Positions 27,157 through 46,041 of a stretch of 64,000 bases of DNA are shown here, one piece after another (position 1 is the stretch's first letter; each line of letters opens with the position of its first letter). Made by a program: the position numbers and the translations under genes. Source of the DNA: Chlorella sorokiniana (lineage: Eukaryota; Chlorophyta; Trebouxiophyceae; Chlorellales; Chlorellaceae); NCBI GenBank assembly GCA_025917655.1, contig CP084612.1, positions 1,054,001 through 1,118,000 of the forward strand. The letters are read 5' to 3'. The notes under the pieces were generated by a model, which searched no databases, was not told where the DNA came from, and saw only the letters and a list, made by a program, of their open reading frames with translations.

Positions 27157-30100
27157 ATGCAGAACGGCGATGTTGGCACGGAACAGCTGCCTTTTGTGCA
27201 CTGGCCGTCGATCATCCACCCAGCGCCCCAGGCCTACCTTGCGCTGCCCTTGCCTGCTCCTCCGACCGTCACATACAAATTAGGACCGGAAGAGCAGCAG
27301 CAGGATGCCCTGGCGGACCACACCACACTCCCCAGTCTGATCTGCGCTCTGCAGAGCGTGGATGTCAGCTACCTGTGCGTATGAATGGTGCACATGAACA
27401 TCAACAGGCAGCCCTGTCGCCTGGCAGTGATCCCCGCATAGCTGCGCTGCCCTTGTTGCTGCCGCCAAGAGGCTCCTGCCGCCCGCCGCTGCCTCAACGC
27501 AACCTCCAGCCATCCAGCAACCCCGCCACCTCGCTCCCTCCCTTTCCAGGCAACCTCTGCGTGCTGCTCCCCCAGAGCCGGAGAACCGCGCACTGCACTG
27601 CAGAAGCAGGTGGCGGAGGCAGCGCCAGGCATCTTCTCCGGCACCCAGGTGCCAGCACCCACAACAGCACCGCTGCTGGCCAAGCCCCGCCGCACTGCGG
27701 CCAAGGCTGCAGCAGTCGCCCCTTCCATCGTCGCGCAACCGGTGCAGCAGCAGGTGGTCAGCCCACACGCAGTCGCCCTGCCGGCGCGAGTGGCGGACAA
27801 GCCTCCAGCCGCCAAGCGTGCTCGCGTGGCGCACGTGGCGGTTGCGGCCGCTCGGGCGCAGGAGGAGATGCCGGCTGAGGGAGCCAGCAAGGCGGCAGGT
27901 GGGTCAGCGCCCCTCAAACTCCCAGTGATGCCAGCCTTGCGATGCTGGCAGCCTTCATGCACGATTTCAGCGGCAGGGCAGCCGGCTGATCTTGCCTCTC
28001 CTAGCCTGTCCTGCAGAGGCCTACACTGCGTTCATCACAGACTTTGTCGCGAGGCACGAAAAGGCGGCAGCAGAGCTGGGGGATGCGCGGCAGATCAACG
28101 GTGCGGCGCGTGCTGTGCTGACTGTTAATGTCACCGTGAGCTGTGCCACAGCTGTCGTTCTGCTCCTTAAGTGCTGACGTCGGCTTGGTGGCCCCCATGG
28201 GCTGCAGGCACGGCTGATGACAACGGTGGGCATGAACCTGCAGCAGAGGAGGCTAGCGATGGGGAGGAGGAGGAGGAGGCTGCAGGCGCTGGGCGTCCTC
28301 CGCAGGCTCTGCGCTGCTGCGCGCCGTGCGGCGGCTCTGCAGCGAGACGCTGCGCATGTGCCGTGCCGACCACGTCGCGGCGCTGCGAGCGGTACCGCTG
28401 GACCCACTGCTGCGCCTGCTGCGCCTGCTGCACCGCCTGGTCAAGAGCGGCGCGGGCGGCTGCTGGAGCCCGGCGATACGGTGGGCCCGCCATGCCTGTG
28501 GGGGACCCGTGCGTGCTGGTGCTGGTTTCGCGGCATGCAATGGCTGGCGGCAGCAGACCAGGGGGCAGCGAAACGCTGCGCTGTGTGTGCTGCCCGCCTT
28601 GGTCAGCCGCTCACGGGTGCTCCCGGCTGCTGGCCCTGCCGCCACCTACGCAGGAGCGCAACTCCCGCGCCAAGTCCATCCTGGTGTCGGTGGAGGCGGC
28701 GGCGGCGGCGCTGCACCTGGTGACGGTGCCTGACATGCCGGCGAGGGGTGGGTCCACTTCCCATACTCCGATTAATGCTGAGGCATCGCCAGACTGCCCT
28801 TGATGCCGCCATGCCTTGTGCTCGCCGCCGGCCAAGAACATGCACTGATGCTCGTCTTGCTGCCAGCAAGTGCCGCGCTCGTGGCCGCCCGTACCGCAGT
28901 GTACAACGAGGACCTGATGGAGGCTGTGCTGGACCTGGTGCGCTTCCAGCTCACCTACAACATCTACCCCTTCCACGACGCGCGGCTGCGCCGGCGGCGC
29001 GGCCCAAGCTGGCAGCGGCTGCGGCTGCTGCCTCGGCAGCCGCCGAGGCTGCGACGGGCGCCAGCCGGAAGCTGTCGGCCAAGAAGGCGCGGGAGGCGGA
29101 GGCTGCTGGCGTCGGGTGAGCGTGGTTGAGGGCTGAGACGAGCCTGACGCTGCAACAGCTGCGTTGGTTCGCGCGGCCATGCAGCACCCGGTGTAGGCCA
29201 GCTCACCTGCATCTTTTGCCTCGCTCCCCCTCCCCCCAGCATGCCCCCCGCCATGGGCCCGCTGCTGGACCGCTGCCAGGCGCTGCTGCTGCTGGCCGCT
29301 GACCTGCTGCGAGGTGTGCGACTGCCCGCGGCGGCGGCGCTGCCGCTGCTGCGCGCCGCCGCGGTGGGGCTGGCGGTGGAGGGGCAGGCGCTGCTGCAGG
29401 AGAAGGCGGTGCGCCTGCTGGTGGCCGCCTTTCGGGAGTATCCGGCGCAGGTGCGACAGAAAAGTTCTCAAAATTAAGCGGAGGTTTGGTGTGTGGTGCT
29501 GTGAGTGGGTGGGTGTTTGTATGTAAGGGGTGGGGGTGGGGGTGGGGTGGGTGTTTAGAGGGGGCGTAGGGACGGGAGTGCTCCTCCATCACGACGCTTG
29601 CCAACCCATGCACCTCACCACGCACGCCGGCACCCCCGCCGCTAGCAGTGGGGCTCCCTGTTGGACGAGCTGTTTGCGCACGTGGTGCCGCACCTGGGCG
29701 GCGGCACCCGCGTGCCCCGCGACTTCCCCGCCTCCGAGGACGCCCGCACCTGCATCCAGATGCTGACTGCGGCGGTGCTGCAGATGATACAGGTGGGGGT
29801 TGGGGTGGGGGGGGGGGGGGGGCCGGCGCGCGGATGGGCGGCCTATGAGGGGATCCACAACTTCTACCAGGCCCTGCAGCGCGGCAGACCCAGCCCTCCT
29901 CTTAACTCCTCATGACATGCCTCACCGCAACGTGGCACCCTACCCCATGCCCCCCCCCCCCCGCCCCCACCCCCCACCCCTCCCTCCCCACACAAACACA
30001 CACACACACACTCACACACACACCACCCAACACACAACACACCACTGAACACCATTCCCTGCAGGGCTGCGTGGACCTGCCCCCATGGACTGCCCCGCGG

Positions 30101-33100
30101 AGCGCCTGGCCGACTGCTACAAGGGCGCCGCCACCTGCGCCGACTACTTCTGGATGCTCTGCTTCGACAGGTGGCGCCTGGGCTGCGCTGGGCTGCCGGC
30201 AGGGCGGCTGCTGCCCTGCCCCGCACCCTGCCGTGCCGTTCTAGAGAGTCAGCGGCGCCAGATGGCTCAGCATGGCATCTGTTGATCGGAAGCTGCCCTC
30301 TGAGCTGCCGCTCTTGCCCTACATACACACGACGCCAACGTTGATGCCCCTTCCCCCTCTCCCCCACACACACTCGTACACGCACAGGCTGCCCGGCGCC
30401 CGCGGCGCCAAGGCCGAAAGCGACCTGGACGTGCGGCCGCTGCTGAGCGCCCTGCTGCGGGACCTGCTGGCCTGCGCCCACCTGCCCGCCTGGCCCGCGG
30501 CGCCCTTCCTGCTGCTGCGCCTCGCCGCGCTGCTGCAGGGCGAGCGCGGGCTGCGCCACGCAGACCCGCACGTGCGCCAGCACAGTCTGGACCTGCTGGC
30601 CAGCCTGGCGGCGCAGCTGTATGCGGACGAGGTGGCGGTGGCCGCTGACGCGCCGCTGCTGCGGCAGCTGGCTCAAGAGTTCGGAGGTGAGTGCAGGGGG
30701 CTGCCGCACCTGCCTCGCTCGACCTGCTACCAGCACAGGTACTCTGGTGGTCATGGAAAGGCCAGCCACTCTTTTTCGCTTATGTGGCGGCTGCCAGTGG
30801 TCGTGCAACTCCCTGTCATGCGGCTATCCCCACCCCGCACACCCCACTCCGCCACTTTGACTCACGCGCCCCCAGGCTCCGACGATGTGGCCGAGGAGGC
30901 CCCTGGTCTGCTGCTGGCGTATCTGTCAGACCCGCGGCGCGCCAGCCACGCGGCCACCGCCTCCGCCCGCGCATTCTTGCTGTGCCAGGCGTTCGCCGAG
31001 GAGGTGACGCACTTGCAGAAGGCGGGGGCGGCGCAGGAGCAGCTGACAGAGAAGCTGGTACAGGTGGGGGCCAAGGCGCGGGGGGGGGGGCGGGGGAGAG
31101 GGGGGGAAGGGGGGATTGTCAGGACCTGGCTGTGTGGAAGGAGCTAAAGAAGGGGCTGGGCAAAAGAGGTTGGAAACCTGCTCAGGAAACAAGGGAAGCA
31201 CCCTCAACACAAAGCTGACCGAGCAGGCGATCCTCCTGCACATTGCGCGCCTGCTGCCCTGCTGCAGTACCGGCGGCAGCGCGAGGAGCTGGAGGCACAG
31301 GGGGCGGAGGTGGGGCTGGATGCGGAGCAGGCGCAGCGGCTGACGCGCTACGTGGTGCAGGTGGGGGCGGGAGCGCCGGCTGTTTCCTGCGCTGAAGCGG
31401 CGGTGTTCGCGAGCGCAGCTGGCTTTCCTCACCCACCCTGGAAGGGCCCAGCTCAGCGGCATCAATGGCCGGCGTGAAGGCATGCGCCGCCAGACAGCTC
31501 CAACTTCCGAAGCACGGCGTCGCGCCCAACGCGCCCCTCCCCCGTCGCGCCCACTGCCTCCCCTGCCCCGCAGTCGTCCCTGGGCCGCGCCCGCGCCTCC
31601 ATGGTGCAGTGGCTGCTGGAATGCCTGGCACCCGTGGGGCAGGCCCCCACCACGCGCTGCAAGGCGGTGCGGGCGCTCGGCGAGGTGGCGGCGGCAGACC
31701 CGCGTGTGCTGGACGCGCCCGGCGTGCAGGCGGCCGTGGAGCGCGCTCTGCAGGTGTGTGTGTGACGCAGCGAGGAGAGCGTCGGGTGGCCGCCGCGGGG
31801 GATGAAGGGGGCGGGGCGGCGCCAGGAGGAGCTTTGATCCACGGACAGGGATGAGTCGGCGGGCCAAAGCAGGCAGCGGCAGGCGGCTACCATGCAGACC
31901 CCAGCTGCATGTGCTCGCCCGCATGCAACATCCCCTCGCTACGCCCTTTGCTGTCGCATCGAACAAGTTTGGTTTGCGTGTGACGCGCCCCCCCCGCTCA
32001 TCCTGCCAGGACGAGGCGATCAGCGTGCGGGAGGCGGCGGTCAGCCTGCTGGGGCGCCACGCGGCGGCCAACCAGGCGCTGGCGCTGCGCCTGTTTGCCA
32101 CGCTGGCCCGCGCCGCCACCGACCCGGGCACCAGCGTGCGCAAGAGCGCCATCAAGATCCTGTGGGAGAGCTGCATCCGCGCCCCTGGCTTCCCCCTCGC
32201 CACTGGTGCGCCACCGGGCCGCAGCAGCGCCTGAAACGCTTGCAGAAGGCAGCAACAGCGCGTGAGGAGCCTGCTCCCAGCAGAGTGCACGACCCAAGCC
32301 AGCTCCCCTCTGCTGGGCCAGGTTGCCGAGCCAGGTCGCCCAGCCACAGCTGCGGCCCCGCCTCCCCCTCACCCCCTGCGGTGCAGATGCGTGCAAGCAC
32401 GTGCTGATGCGGGCGGCTGATCCCGAGGAAAGCATACAGGACATGGTGGCGCGCGTGTTCCACAGGTGAAGGCGGGGGGGGGGCTGTGTTGGGTGAGCTG
32501 GCCTCCAGGGCCAACCGCAGCTGCAGAAGCTTTCACGCTCCAGCTGCCAGCAGGGGAGCACGGAGCAGGGCTGCGAGTCGGAGCAGCGCCTCGAAGGTTG
32601 CCAGGCTGAGGGTCTCCTGCTGGTCCGCCCGCCGCCAAGTAACGCCTGCCTGCTCCGCCTGCGCACCCCCTCGCCAGCCTGTGGTTCACGCCGCGGCTGG
32701 AGGTGGAGGAGGGCGGGGCGCGGGTGGCGCGCAGCGCGGCGCAGCGCGCGCAGCAGCTGGCTGATGTGGCGGCCGCCGTGTACGAGGCCGGGGGCCGCGC
32801 CATCCACCTGCCGCTGGAGCAGGCGCACCCGCTGGTGGCGGTGCTGCGCGCCGCTCTGGGTGCCGGCGCCCGCGGGGACCTCAAGGTGGGGCGGATTGGG
32901 TTGGGAAGGGCGGTGGCAGTGAGGAGTTTGGGGCATCGCTGGTGGCGTGGACAGCCATCCTTCCGGATCAGCCGGCCCTGCATAGACCCTTGACACGTCG
33001 TGCCTCCGTTTGCGGCTGGGTTGGGCGCCTGGGAGGCTCCGCTGGCGGCAACGGCGTCCCTGCGCCGCCCAGCTGCGCCAGCCAGCTTGTCAGCTCAGCG

Positions 33101-41638: not shown

Positions 41639-43553
41639 GGAGGGGCATGCAGCGCCGACTGATCGAGAGGTTGCGGCGGCAGCAGCGGCGGCGCTCTCAG
41701 CCACCGCCTCCAACATGCAGCACAGCAAGACCGCGCTGGGGTACCTCGCCAGGGAGGCGCCCCTGCTCACCTGGCTGCCCCTGCTTGCCTGCGCCGCAGC
41801 AGTGGCCGCCGGGGTGTGGGCCTGCGGCGGCGCCTGGTCTGGGCGGCCCTCGGGGCCCTCGCCTCCTACGCCCTCACCATCTGGCAGGTGACCCGATTAC
41901 CATGCATTCCAAGCCTTCCTCAGTGCCTGCCCACGTTAATTCTGAAATGAGAACCCCCTCAGCCCCCTTAACAAAACCCTCACCACCCACCTACCTGCAC
42001 CCGCACCCCAACCCCACAGGTGCTGGCCCCCTGGTGCGCCGCTTCCAGGCCCTGCGCCGCCAACTGCTGGACAGCGACCGAGCAGCCAAGCGGCGGCTGG
42101 ATGCCGCGGCGGAGCAGCTCAGGCAAGCTGTCGTAGGCACCCGGCAGTGCGGCACAGCAGCAGGCAGACCCAGTGCTGAGAACTTTCTTTCTTTCTCAAT
42201 GGGTCGACTATTTCTTTGTGCCAGCTGCAGGCGGGCTCAGATCCAGCAGCGCGAGGCGGAGCAGGAGGCAGAGGAGGTGGGGGCGGGTGGGCCGCTGGGC
42301 GGAGGTGGTGACGAGGCTGAAGACTTCACATTGCTTGTCAGGGACAGACATGCTCTGCAGCTTTCGCGCACTCTGCACATCCCAGTTGTCACGCCTGTCT
42401 GCAGCTTCGGCAGGAGCTCAGCTGGTTGAGGGAGACAGCAGCTGCTAGCTGGCAGGCTGGCCACAGCGCCAGGAGCAACGATCACAGCACCGTTGCTCCA
42501 TTGGACGTTTTGGAGCCGACTGCAGAGGACGCCAAGCCACAGGGCTTCCCAAGAACAAGTGCAGAAGGCAGCGATACGGGAAATGCGAGCGGTGCTGCGC
42601 CGCTGCAGCAGCATCCAGTTGAGCAGGAGCAGCGAGAGGATGAGCGGGTGCGCTGAGCTGCCTGCCAGGGCAGCAGTCCTTGCAAAAGGCTCTTCCACTG
42701 CAGGCAGACCAAGTTTTGACTTGGTTCACTGAAGCTCTGTGCATTCCTTGCTGTGTGCAGCGCCTGGCGGGCATCCTGAACAACGCTCTGAACGCCGCGG
42801 CGGTGCCCTCAGCGCCCAGTGATGCCTGCGACGCCGATTGTTCGGCGGACCTGGATGCCCTGGATGGCTGGGGGAGCGTCTCGTGGACAGGGGTGCGCCC
42901 CGGGGTGCGAGGGCATGCAAGGGTGAAGCGGTGGCTACCAAATGGCCACATAGGGTGCCTGACCAGGCCGTTGCCTCTGCGCAGCACACAGCTGGGTGGC
43001 TTGGCCTGCCTCTACAGCCCGGCTTCATGTTCCTGCTGCCTGCGCCCATCCTGCCGCAGGATCCCTGTGGAGCTGGCGGGGGCGCTGCAGCCGCGGGTGG
43101 ATGCTCTGCGGCGCCAAGCGCAGGAGGCAGCGGCCAAGGAGGAGGAGGTGGGGGCGGCAGCACCGGCAGCCAGCCCGGCACCCGGCTCTGCACAAAGGCA
43201 GCCATCTTCGAGCCTCTGCTTCTCAATTATGGTAGTCTCGCTCATGGAAACCAACTCTAGCTGCCCTCTCACTGCTTTTGCAGATCCAGCATCTGCGCAG
43301 AGAGGTCCGCGAGTGCAGCGCCGAGCTGGATTCGGCGCGGTGCCAGCTGGCGGCGGCCCGGGCCGACAGCCGCAGGGTGGCCTCCCTGCAGCGCCACCTG
43401 GCGGATGTGGAGGAGCAGCTGGTGCGGAAGACGCGCGAGTGGGAGCAGCTGCTGGCAGCGGTGGCGGGGCCGCAGGCGGTGGGGCAAGCGGATGAGCAGC
43501 GCAGGCCACGCGGGCGCCCCAAGGGCTCAGGCCAGCGGCAGCATGCGACATGA
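41639..43553 (+). CDS. membrane-anchored coiled-coil protein (5' end uncertain)
   Basis: No family recognised. The first clear exon reads REVAAAAAAALSATASNMQH and SKTALGYLAREAPL, then a hydrophobic pair: LLTWLPLLACAAAVAAGVW and, after a one-base frame change (about 41815-41823), LVWAALGALASYALTIWQ. Two adjacent membrane helices are therefore likely. The rest is cytosolic-looking coiled coil: LVRRFQALRRQLLDSDRAAK, KRRLDAAAEQLR, IQQREAEQEAEE, VDALRRQAQEAAAKEEE, IQHLRREVRECSAELDSARC and LQRHLADVEEQLVRKTREWE. The tail RRPRGRPKGSGQRQHAT contains an AT-hook-like GRPKG. A C seems missing from the run 42027-42031. The layout resembles a tail- or head-anchored tether or golgin-like protein; this is inference. 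Confidence 0.5.
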
Positions 43554-44346
43554 TCAGCGACTACACTCTGTGCATCCGGTCACACGAGAGGGGGAAGGGC
43601 AGCTGCACATCAGCTGAGAGAGTCGGGAGCACCCAGGGTGGCGTGCGTGCAAAGGGCGCACGACTACAGCAGGCGGGGCGTGGCGGGGCGCATACATACC
43701 GGGCCACATCGAGCGCCTTCCAGTGGCAGGCAGTGCCATCCACAAACAGCTGGGTTAGGGTGTTGTGTGCCTGGCGTGTCGACAGCTTGAATGCGTCCAC
43801 CAGAGGCGCCAGCCGCTGCACAAACTGCTGCACGGCTGCGGCGGCGCGCCCGGCTGGCGCCTCTGGTGGACGCATTCAAGCTGTTGATACGCCAGGCACA
43901 CAACACCCTAACCCAGCTGTTTTTGCAGCTTAAATTTCCCGAAAGCTGTAAATTAGGCTTCAAGCTGATGGTTGCAATAAGCTGGTGGCAAATTTAGTGA
44001 TGGCGGCGGGAGCACATGGCGACAGGGCAGCAGCAGCGGTGGCAAGTTTAGTGCGCGAGGGGGACCGTACTGCGTGCTCATGATCATCGCGCGCACTTTC
44101 AGAGTCGATTTGCATTCTAGAGTCGCGTCACCTGCTTTTCAAGGAAAAGTCCCGAAACTTTCACGCGGCTACGAGGCTAGTGTAGGGCTTCGTGACTGGG
44201 ACGTAAGCTCCGGATCAGCTGCAGACGTGTTATCGCAACACGCGATCATTGCCCAGGGAGGCTGTGGCGAGGTCGACCGCCGTCCACACGGCCAGGCGCC
44301 GCTCACGTCACCCGCCTGGTTGACGGCGGCGCACCCCGCAGCGTGC
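43554..44346. other. intergenic; contains a long hairpin
   Basis: Apart from the inverted repeat at 43741-43925, this is AT-richer DNA with no convincing gene. A 14-bp direct repeat TGGCAA(A/G)TTTAGTG occurs near 43986 and 44039. An open frame from 44080 runs into the OTU gene but has poor codon character before 44347. Confidence 0.5.
43741..43925. repeat. near-perfect inverted repeat, 75-bp arms, 35-bp loop
   Basis: The left arm 43741-43815 is the reverse complement of the right arm 43851-43925 with only three differences in 75 positions. As plus-strand RNA, two of the three (43778/43888 and 43781/43885) are G-U pairs, leaving one true mismatch (43743/43923). The minus strand of the left arm encodes APLVDAFKLSTRQAHNTLTQ and continues outside the arm as LFVDGTACHWKALDVAR. 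This ends at a perfect GTATGT donor, so it looks like a copied exon of a host gene. The right arm encodes APLVDAFKLLIRQAHNTLTQ on the plus strand. Confidence 0.9.
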
Positions 44347-46041
44347 ATGAAGCCTGAGGAGACGGTGGAGGTGTTGATAGTAGCCCACCATGAGGGCGCC
44401 AACGCCTCCACAGATTGCGACGAAGCGATAGCAAGGGCACTCGAGGCGGAGGAGGGAGGGGTGACCGCCGGCAGCGGCGCCGGCCAGCAAGGCGGAAGCA
44501 GGCAGGGTGCCTTGGCGGACGCAGGCCCAGCACCTGCAGCAGACGAGGTGCAAGGGCCGGACGCTCCCTCGGCGCCGCCGTTGCCCTGCGACCCTCGGTC
44601 GCCTGGCTCCCAGGAGCGGGCTGGAGAGCCTGCAGGGCCGGGCGCTGCTCCGGCGCAGCTGGCTGAAGACGAGCAGCTGGCCCGCTCCCTCCACGATGAG
44701 GAGCTGCAGCGGCTGTCTGAGGAGCAACGGGGTGGGTGAAAGCCCGCCTTACACCCAAGCCAGTGGGCTGCTTTGATCACGCGAGACGGCTGCCCACACC
44801 CAGCCGCCTTCCAGCCGTGAAGGTGTCCGCCCTCCCTGCCCCCGCTGCCCCCCCCCCCCGCAGAGCGCCTGACCACGCTGCCCTCGCTGCTGGCCGACTC
44901 GCCGCTTGTGCGCACGCTGTCGGACAAGCTGCTGCAGAGCGTGCCGCTCACAAAGGTGACGCCCGGCATCCCCCCCCGCCTCCTCGTGGTTGCGTCCAGC
45001 CGCTTGTGGCGCCGGCTGAGAGCCCACCCAAGGCTGCTGAGAGCCTCCTCGGGTGTGTCGCCACCACCTGCTGCAGCTGCTGCCGCGGGTGAACAGCCTG
45101 ATCGATACGGCTGCGCGCGCCGAGCCCAGCAGCGCGGGCGGGCGCGGCTGGAGGAGCGGCTGCGCCTCTACTGCCTGACTGAGCGGCAGGTGAAGGGGGA
45201 CGGCGCCTGCCAGTTCCGCGCCCTGTCAGACCAACTGTACAGGTGCGTGGGGAAGGGGCGGAGGCGCTGCCGCCGGCTGCGCTTGGCGTGCCAGCCGCTC
45301 TTGCCAGCACGGGCGCCGCCGTTGCTACGCTCCTGACCAGCTGCCTGCGTCCCCGGCCCGCAGGACGCCCCGCCTGCACGGCTTCGTGCGGGAGTGCGTG
45401 TGCCGGCAGCTGGCGGCGCGTGCGGAGCGGTACGCCGGCTTTGTGCCAGGGGATTACCGCTCATACTGCGCCAGCATGGCGCGCAGCTCCACCTGGGGGA
45501 CCACGTCACCCTGCAGGTGAGCCCAAGGGGCACCCCTCCTGCTGGGCTGCGCTAGGCAGCGCCGCAGCGGAGCTCGGCCCTTTTGCGAGACATGCTGGCA
45601 GCCAGTAAGGAGCCCTCTGATTGTGTGCCCGCGGCAGCGTGCCTGTCAGCTGCCGGCCCCACATCCCTGCCAAGCCCCTTCCCCGGTGCAGGCTGCGGCC
45701 GACTACTTTGGGCTGCGCATCCTGGTGCTGGCCAGCTATGAGAGCGGCGCCTTCCTGTGGATCGAGCCCAAAGAGCAGCGCAGCAAGCGCACGCTGTGGC
45801 TCAGCTTCTGGGCAGAGGTGCGGGGGAGGGGTGCAGGCCGGGAGGCCTAAGACTGCATGTTGTCGCACGCTCACTGGCTGCTCCACGTCTTCCAACGACT
45901 GACACAAACGACTGACACAAACATTTGTGCTGCCCCGCAGCTGCACTACAACTCCTTGTACCATGCGGACGAGCCGCCGCCGCCCTGCCCGACGGCAAGC
46001 TTCTGGGCAGCCGCCGCCTGCACGCCCTCCTGTTTGGGTAG
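44347..46041 (+). CDS. OTU-family cysteine deubiquitinase
   Basis: Predicted ubiquitin-chain-cleaving protease of the plant OTU type. The N-terminal exon starts MKPEETVEVLIVAHHEGANA and has two short amphipathic helices, DCDEAIARALEAEE and EDEQLARSLHDEELQRL; the second fits the UIM pattern. After TLPSLLADSPLVRTLSDKLL comes the OTU core: GDGACQFRALSDQLY with the catalytic Cys (45.2 kb), GFVRECVCRQLAARAERYAG, STWGDHVTLQAAADYFGLRI, LVLASYESGAFLWIEPKEQR, and LHYNSLYHADEPPPP with the catalytic His (45.95 kb). The natural end is LPDGKLLGSRRLHALLFG with stop at 46041, reached if one C missing at 45983-45985 is allowed. Another frame break lies near 45.13 kb. The start at 44347 was chosen because upstream codons look non-coding. 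Confidence 0.88.
45894..45921 (+). repeat. 14-bp tandem duplication in an OTU-gene intron
   Basis: The unit ACGACTGACACAA(A/C) occurs twice in tandem, within the last intron of the OTU gene. Confidence 0.75.

Follow-up and report, generated by a model that had tools for sequence, protein, structure and literature searches.

A near-perfect, apparently single-copy foldback built from an old gene fragment: a plausible proto-hairpin locus in an alga-like genome

It is an established proposal that new MIR genes can form when pieces of genes or pseudogenes undergo inverted duplication, as set out for plants in PMC3237417. A comparable arrangement is found within the window, which is the whole 64,000-nucleotide stretch of DNA that was analysed: a gene fragment is accompanied by an adjacent inverted copy of part of itself, the two form a hairpin, and a source-like gene lies elsewhere in the genome. 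The locus differs from the plant cases outlined in that report in that its fragment appears to have drifted to 69% identity before the inverted copy was made, and the hairpin is known here from its sequence alone. A second related system comes from Chlamydomonas, where direct cutting by DCL3 has been proposed for mRNAs that carry hairpins in their untranslated regions (PMC4817775). The present hairpin likewise appears to lie 3' of a stop codon, in a genome with Argonaute and Dicer-like genes, whereas both its UTR status and its dicing are putative. The third system is the template-switch inverted repeat described in PMC8604942; a two-hop polymerase switch could explain a near-perfect repeat such as this one, and template switching can also homogenise the arms of existing repeats. 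The arms at this locus are 72 nt long, in contrast to the 7–16-bp repeats in the table of that report. The features of the locus are as follows, in window coordinates.

43236 to 43553, plus strand: last open frame of the presumed upstream gene, coiled-coil-like, with its stop at 43551–43553 (predicted gene model)
43571 to 43848, minus strand: gene fragment homologous to positions 408521–408806 of contig C4 (local score 195; best of 100 shuffles 46)
43699 to 43851, minus strand: exonic portion of the fragment, which extends to GTATGT and stays open for 51 residues
43741 to 43815, minus strand: left arm of the hairpin, in frame on this strand within the drifted exon fragment; its share of the compact stem is 43744–43815
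43816 to 43850, no strand given: spacer or loop of 35 nt, of which the portion up to 43848 is the exon fragment continuing upstream on the minus strand
43851 to 43925, plus strand: right arm, an inverted copy of the left arm, with the C4 base at both internal arm differences
43947 to 43951, plus strand: TGTAA, the sole plus-strand instance in 42000–46000 and a possible poly(A) signal, just beyond the hairpin

The hairpin is real. Its arms (43741–43815 and 43851–43925) are 75 nt each, exhibit 96% complementarity and are separated by 35 nt, in agreement with the original prediction of a 185-bp near-perfect hairpin with three differences between its arms. The non-matching pairs are 43743/43923, 43778/43888 and 43781/43885. 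The first of these is located at the outer end, which leaves a compact stem of 72 nt (43744–43815 with 43851–43922) containing two differences. Both internal pairs are G-U in the plus-strand RNA, as had also been predicted, and C/A in the minus-strand RNA. Folding of both strands, which had been proposed as a check, gave -182.9 kcal/mol for 43721–43945 on the plus strand (z -21.3) and -173.7 kcal/mol on the minus strand (z -17.4), and each fold was better than all 200 of its shuffles. The stem is retained in a 417-nt fold of 43554–43970, with none of 100 shuffles as good. The window and 12 fetched loci were scanned for foldbacks with arms of at least 30 nt, identity of at least 88% and a spacer of no more than 500, a sample of 144,172 bases in which 3,198 are counted twice because locus L012 lies inside L022; no second foldback was identified in this sample. 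Among the first 25 of the window's 29 inverted pairs, the next are at most 37 nt long, and many are of low complexity. Several low-complexity inverted pairs of G-rich and C-rich sequence are situated at 29791–31102.

Comparison with known RNA families returned no Rfam family at its gathering score, all 15 matches being below it. The best match is MIR918, with 97.1 bits against a threshold of 268 on the plus strand and 96 bits on the minus strand, which amounts to generic hairpin similarity. The long and nearly perfect stem looks more like an hp-siRNA precursor than a microRNA precursor. The structural half of the definition of an inverted-duplication MIR gene is present at this locus, and its adjacent inverted copies can be traced to an identifiable gene, as is characteristic of inverted-duplication hairpin loci.

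An inverted repeat is also the shape expected of a MITE or another inverted-repeat transposon, and this origin is extremely improbable here. The matches listed from a DNA search with 43721–43945 against the genome (38.8 Mb in 15 contigs), which scores only the best candidates, comprise the query locus, its match to itself in inverted orientation and a single short stretch of C4, and no further copy of the hairpin. An arm 21-mer occurs in the genome at zero or one mismatch only in the two arms, and the right flank has no match besides itself. No exact direct repeat of at least 4 bases flanks either the hairpin or the whole insert when the ends are shifted by up to 3 bases, so that no target-site duplication was found in this range. 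Membership of a repeat family was rejected on the copy search, among the matches listed, and on the self-match of the right flank.

The left arm had been read on the minus strand as part of an exon that reaches a GTATGT donor, and the open frame does extend to the predicted exon edge, where GTATGT is present. A genome search with the minus-strand peptide, the route suggested for locating the parent gene, matched the locus itself, the right arm and C4, and a source-like gene is thereby located on C4. The fragment peptide exhibits 50% identity with the C4 exon across 48 residues (residues 4–51). The nucleotide homology with C4:408521–408806 forms a single continuous aligned block that runs from window position 43848 down to 43571, and when the C4 stretch was used as the query of a reverse search, the matches were itself and window positions 43588–43848 alone (69%, E 6.1e-20). 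The block corresponds to approximately the final 150 nt of a C4 exon and the presumed intron that follows, almost to the 3' end of the intron, with the exon and intron limits predicted from splice sites read in the C4 sequence. Since the intron is present in the copy, the copying would have taken place at the level of DNA and not by reverse transcription. Pfam analysis of five open-frame pieces of the C4 gene gave a single weak UCH/USP match (PF00443, 20.4 bits with a cut-off of 23.9) and no match for the other four, and there was no Pfam match in the hairpin fragment itself. The C4 gene is tentatively assigned as USP/UCH-like. The open frames on either side of it (locus L007 1–2300 and locus L025, within C4:404000–419000) have similar peptides, LLAFYTFVAAAMGKPSARPRTW and LLALYTFVAAAFGRPSARPRTW, which suggests that the C4 gene is flanked by duplicated genes.

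The proposal that an exon fragment was copied and then inverted next to itself is borne out in part: there is a source-like gene on C4 and an adjacent inverted copy. The fragment, however, also holds a presumed intron and is old, at 69% identity, and only the inverted duplication looks young. The alignment of the fragment with C4 covers 45 codons, in which codon positions 1, 2 and 3 show 12, 19 and 17 differences respectively. The third-position excess is absent, so the divergence is unlike that of two constrained coding exons, and the fragment appears to have drifted as non-coding DNA; its 51-residue minus-strand frame is still open despite this lack of a coding-constraint sign. Identity is uneven across three blocks of 15 codons (0.78, 0.44 and 0.71). 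The C4 exon carries a short internal repeat at L007 4610–4631, with CTGTGCCTGG occurring twice. The repeat lies in the block with the lowest identity to the fragment and may be the cause of that low value.

The arms differ from each other at 2 of 72 sites, and because the C4 base is found in the right arm at both, it is the left arm that most likely mutated after the duplication. The simplest history, and the best read of these two sites, would be an old fragment, a recent inverted duplication of part of it and two subsequent left-arm changes. One alternative is an older duplication whose arms were kept alike by template-switch homogenisation of the kind described in PMC8604942, and another is a recent copy of a diverged paralogue that is absent from the matches found. 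Two arm differences are too few for demonstrating selection on pairing. They also bear on whether the hairpin could be an assembly or read artefact. Fold-back chimeras yield inverted copies with short spacers, which is the form observed here, but at each of the two internal differences between the arms the right arm agrees with C4. The chance of that pattern is roughly 3%, an estimate which takes some 40% of arm sites to differ from C4 and lets a new base agree with C4 in at most half of the cases. An artefact is accordingly regarded as very unlikely.

The hairpin follows closely on a plus-strand open frame, and the fragment that contains it begins 17 bases past the stop codon at 43551–43553. 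This upstream frame (43236–43553) gave five Pfam matches, every one below its cut-off. On the 3' side of the fragment a further open frame on the plus strand contains an ATG at 44347. The pentamer TGTAA has been proposed as the poly(A) signal of every chlorophyte but one among those studied in PMC1868727. The two strands of the window together contain 24 copies of it, with 21.6 expected from an order-3 model and 17.0 from an order-1 model, so it is not notably enriched. The position of the hairpin together with the one TGTAA beyond it suggests that the hairpin may lie inside the 3'UTR of the upstream gene.

Components of the silencing machinery are encoded in the genome. An Argonaute is encoded on contig C1, where two Piwi matches (61.2 and 52.4 bits, cut-off 28.9) and a PAZ match just under its cut-off (28.5 bits, cut-off 28.8) lie on the same strand within about 4 kb. 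The Piwi piece, when compared with solved structures, matches Argonautes, with argonaute 10 as the best hit. At a separate C1 locus, the one piece compared with the PDB matches DCL1 first, followed by DCL4 and other Dicers. Pfam analysis of four pieces of this locus gave two RNase III matches below cut-off and two pieces with no match, and more RNase III-like motifs were seen nearby by eye. The genome probably encodes a Dicer-like protein as well. Two further RNase III loci on contig C3 are both above cut-off. In addition, 41 chlorophyll-binding family matches suggest that the genome is that of a photosynthetic eukaryote, probably a green alga.

Trans action would require that small RNAs from the stem match the C4 gene, as the original prediction had anticipated, and this is the case for one end of the stem. 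A total of 34 of 165 plus-strand 21-mers are antisense to the C4 region with no more than 4 mismatches, 2 of the 165 having a single mismatch, and only 6 of 165 minus-strand 21-mers match it, all with 4 mismatches; these counts refer to the genomic sense strand of the C4 region and are without a shuffle control. The loop-proximal 21-mer that is antisense at 43798–43818 pairs with C4 at 20 of 21 positions, which makes C4 its best non-self site in the genome. Five other sites have two mismatches, and the reversed-pattern control gave none. The C4 mismatch falls at position 17 of the small RNA, which leaves positions 2–12 fully paired, the pairing that was required of cleavage targets in PMC5511227. 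A proto-miRNA or hp-siRNA locus that targets the C4 gene in trans, in line with the inverted-duplication model, has this site in its favour and is nevertheless unlikely, given that the divergence from C4 is too great over most of the stem and that the best 21-mer depends on three nucleotides that extend past the arm into the loop. The 21-mer two bases along, moreover, has three mismatches with C4 and two better non-self sites with two mismatches each; it gives 44 genome matches at up to three mismatches, its own two arms included, with 10 for the reversed-pattern control. One of these matches, on the minus strand at C6:1161818–1161838 (locus L028 4319–4339), is a 21-mer identical to the C4 exon site that lies within apparently unrelated sequence. 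It was rejected as a second source copy, as its surroundings score 43 against C4 and 34 against the fragment, with a best shuffle of 46, and sequence that aligns no better than shuffles is taken to contain the 21-mer by chance.

The explanation that we prefer combines an origin with a conditional mode of working, and as a whole it is judged moderately probable. The end of an exon and the presumed intron of a USP/UCH-like gene, either the one now on C4 or a lost paralogue, would have been the source of a genomic fragment. This fragment would have been inserted in reverse orientation just 3' of the stop codon of the plus-strand gene, where it then drifted as non-coding DNA. A later event, most likely replication template switching, would have produced an inverted copy of a 72–75-bp piece of it and with this the near-perfect foldback. 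If the upstream mRNA reads through, its RNA would contain a stem of about 72 bp that would be a suitable Dicer-like substrate. If the hairpin is transcribed, the likeliest outcome would be that the host mRNA is cut in cis and that siRNAs arise as a side product, by analogy with the Chlamydomonas UTR hairpins for which direct cutting by DCL3 has been proposed (PMC4817775). In trans, the C4 gene could be silenced only via the loop-proximal end. The template switching, the transcription, the dicing and any effect are steps that we infer, and it is doubtful that cis cleavage of the host mRNA really occurs. A still more elaborate arrangement would be a newborn siRNA hairpin in the 3'UTR of one gene, built from the exon of another, whose dicing destroys the host mRNA and at the same time frees a small RNA that cuts the USP-like mRNA, coupling the two genes; it is quite improbable.

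The same origin is compatible with a silent scar, a young neutral foldback that has no consequential transcription or dicing and that will decay or be lost. This reading has somewhat less than an even chance, and as the origin is common to both, its probability overlaps with that of the preferred explanation. No sign of selection was found at the locus, no other copy was among the matches listed, the fragment is without coding constraint and no Rfam family reached its gathering score, all of which would fit a scar. Against a scar, the hairpin lies close 3' of a plus-strand stop, no plus-strand TGTAA intervenes before its end, and silencing genes are present in the genome.

The locus is best described as a real foldback, apparently single-copy and recent, that derives from an old gene fragment, and a proto-hairpin locus is a plausible designation for it. 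It would be an example of an already known kind that is itself new. A silent locus would be no more than a common scar of rearrangement. If it is transcribed and diced, it would show the inverted-duplication route to small-RNA genes at an early point where the history can still be read, and one assembly of an alga-like genome would hold the source-like gene, the probable sequence of mutations and the silencing genes together.
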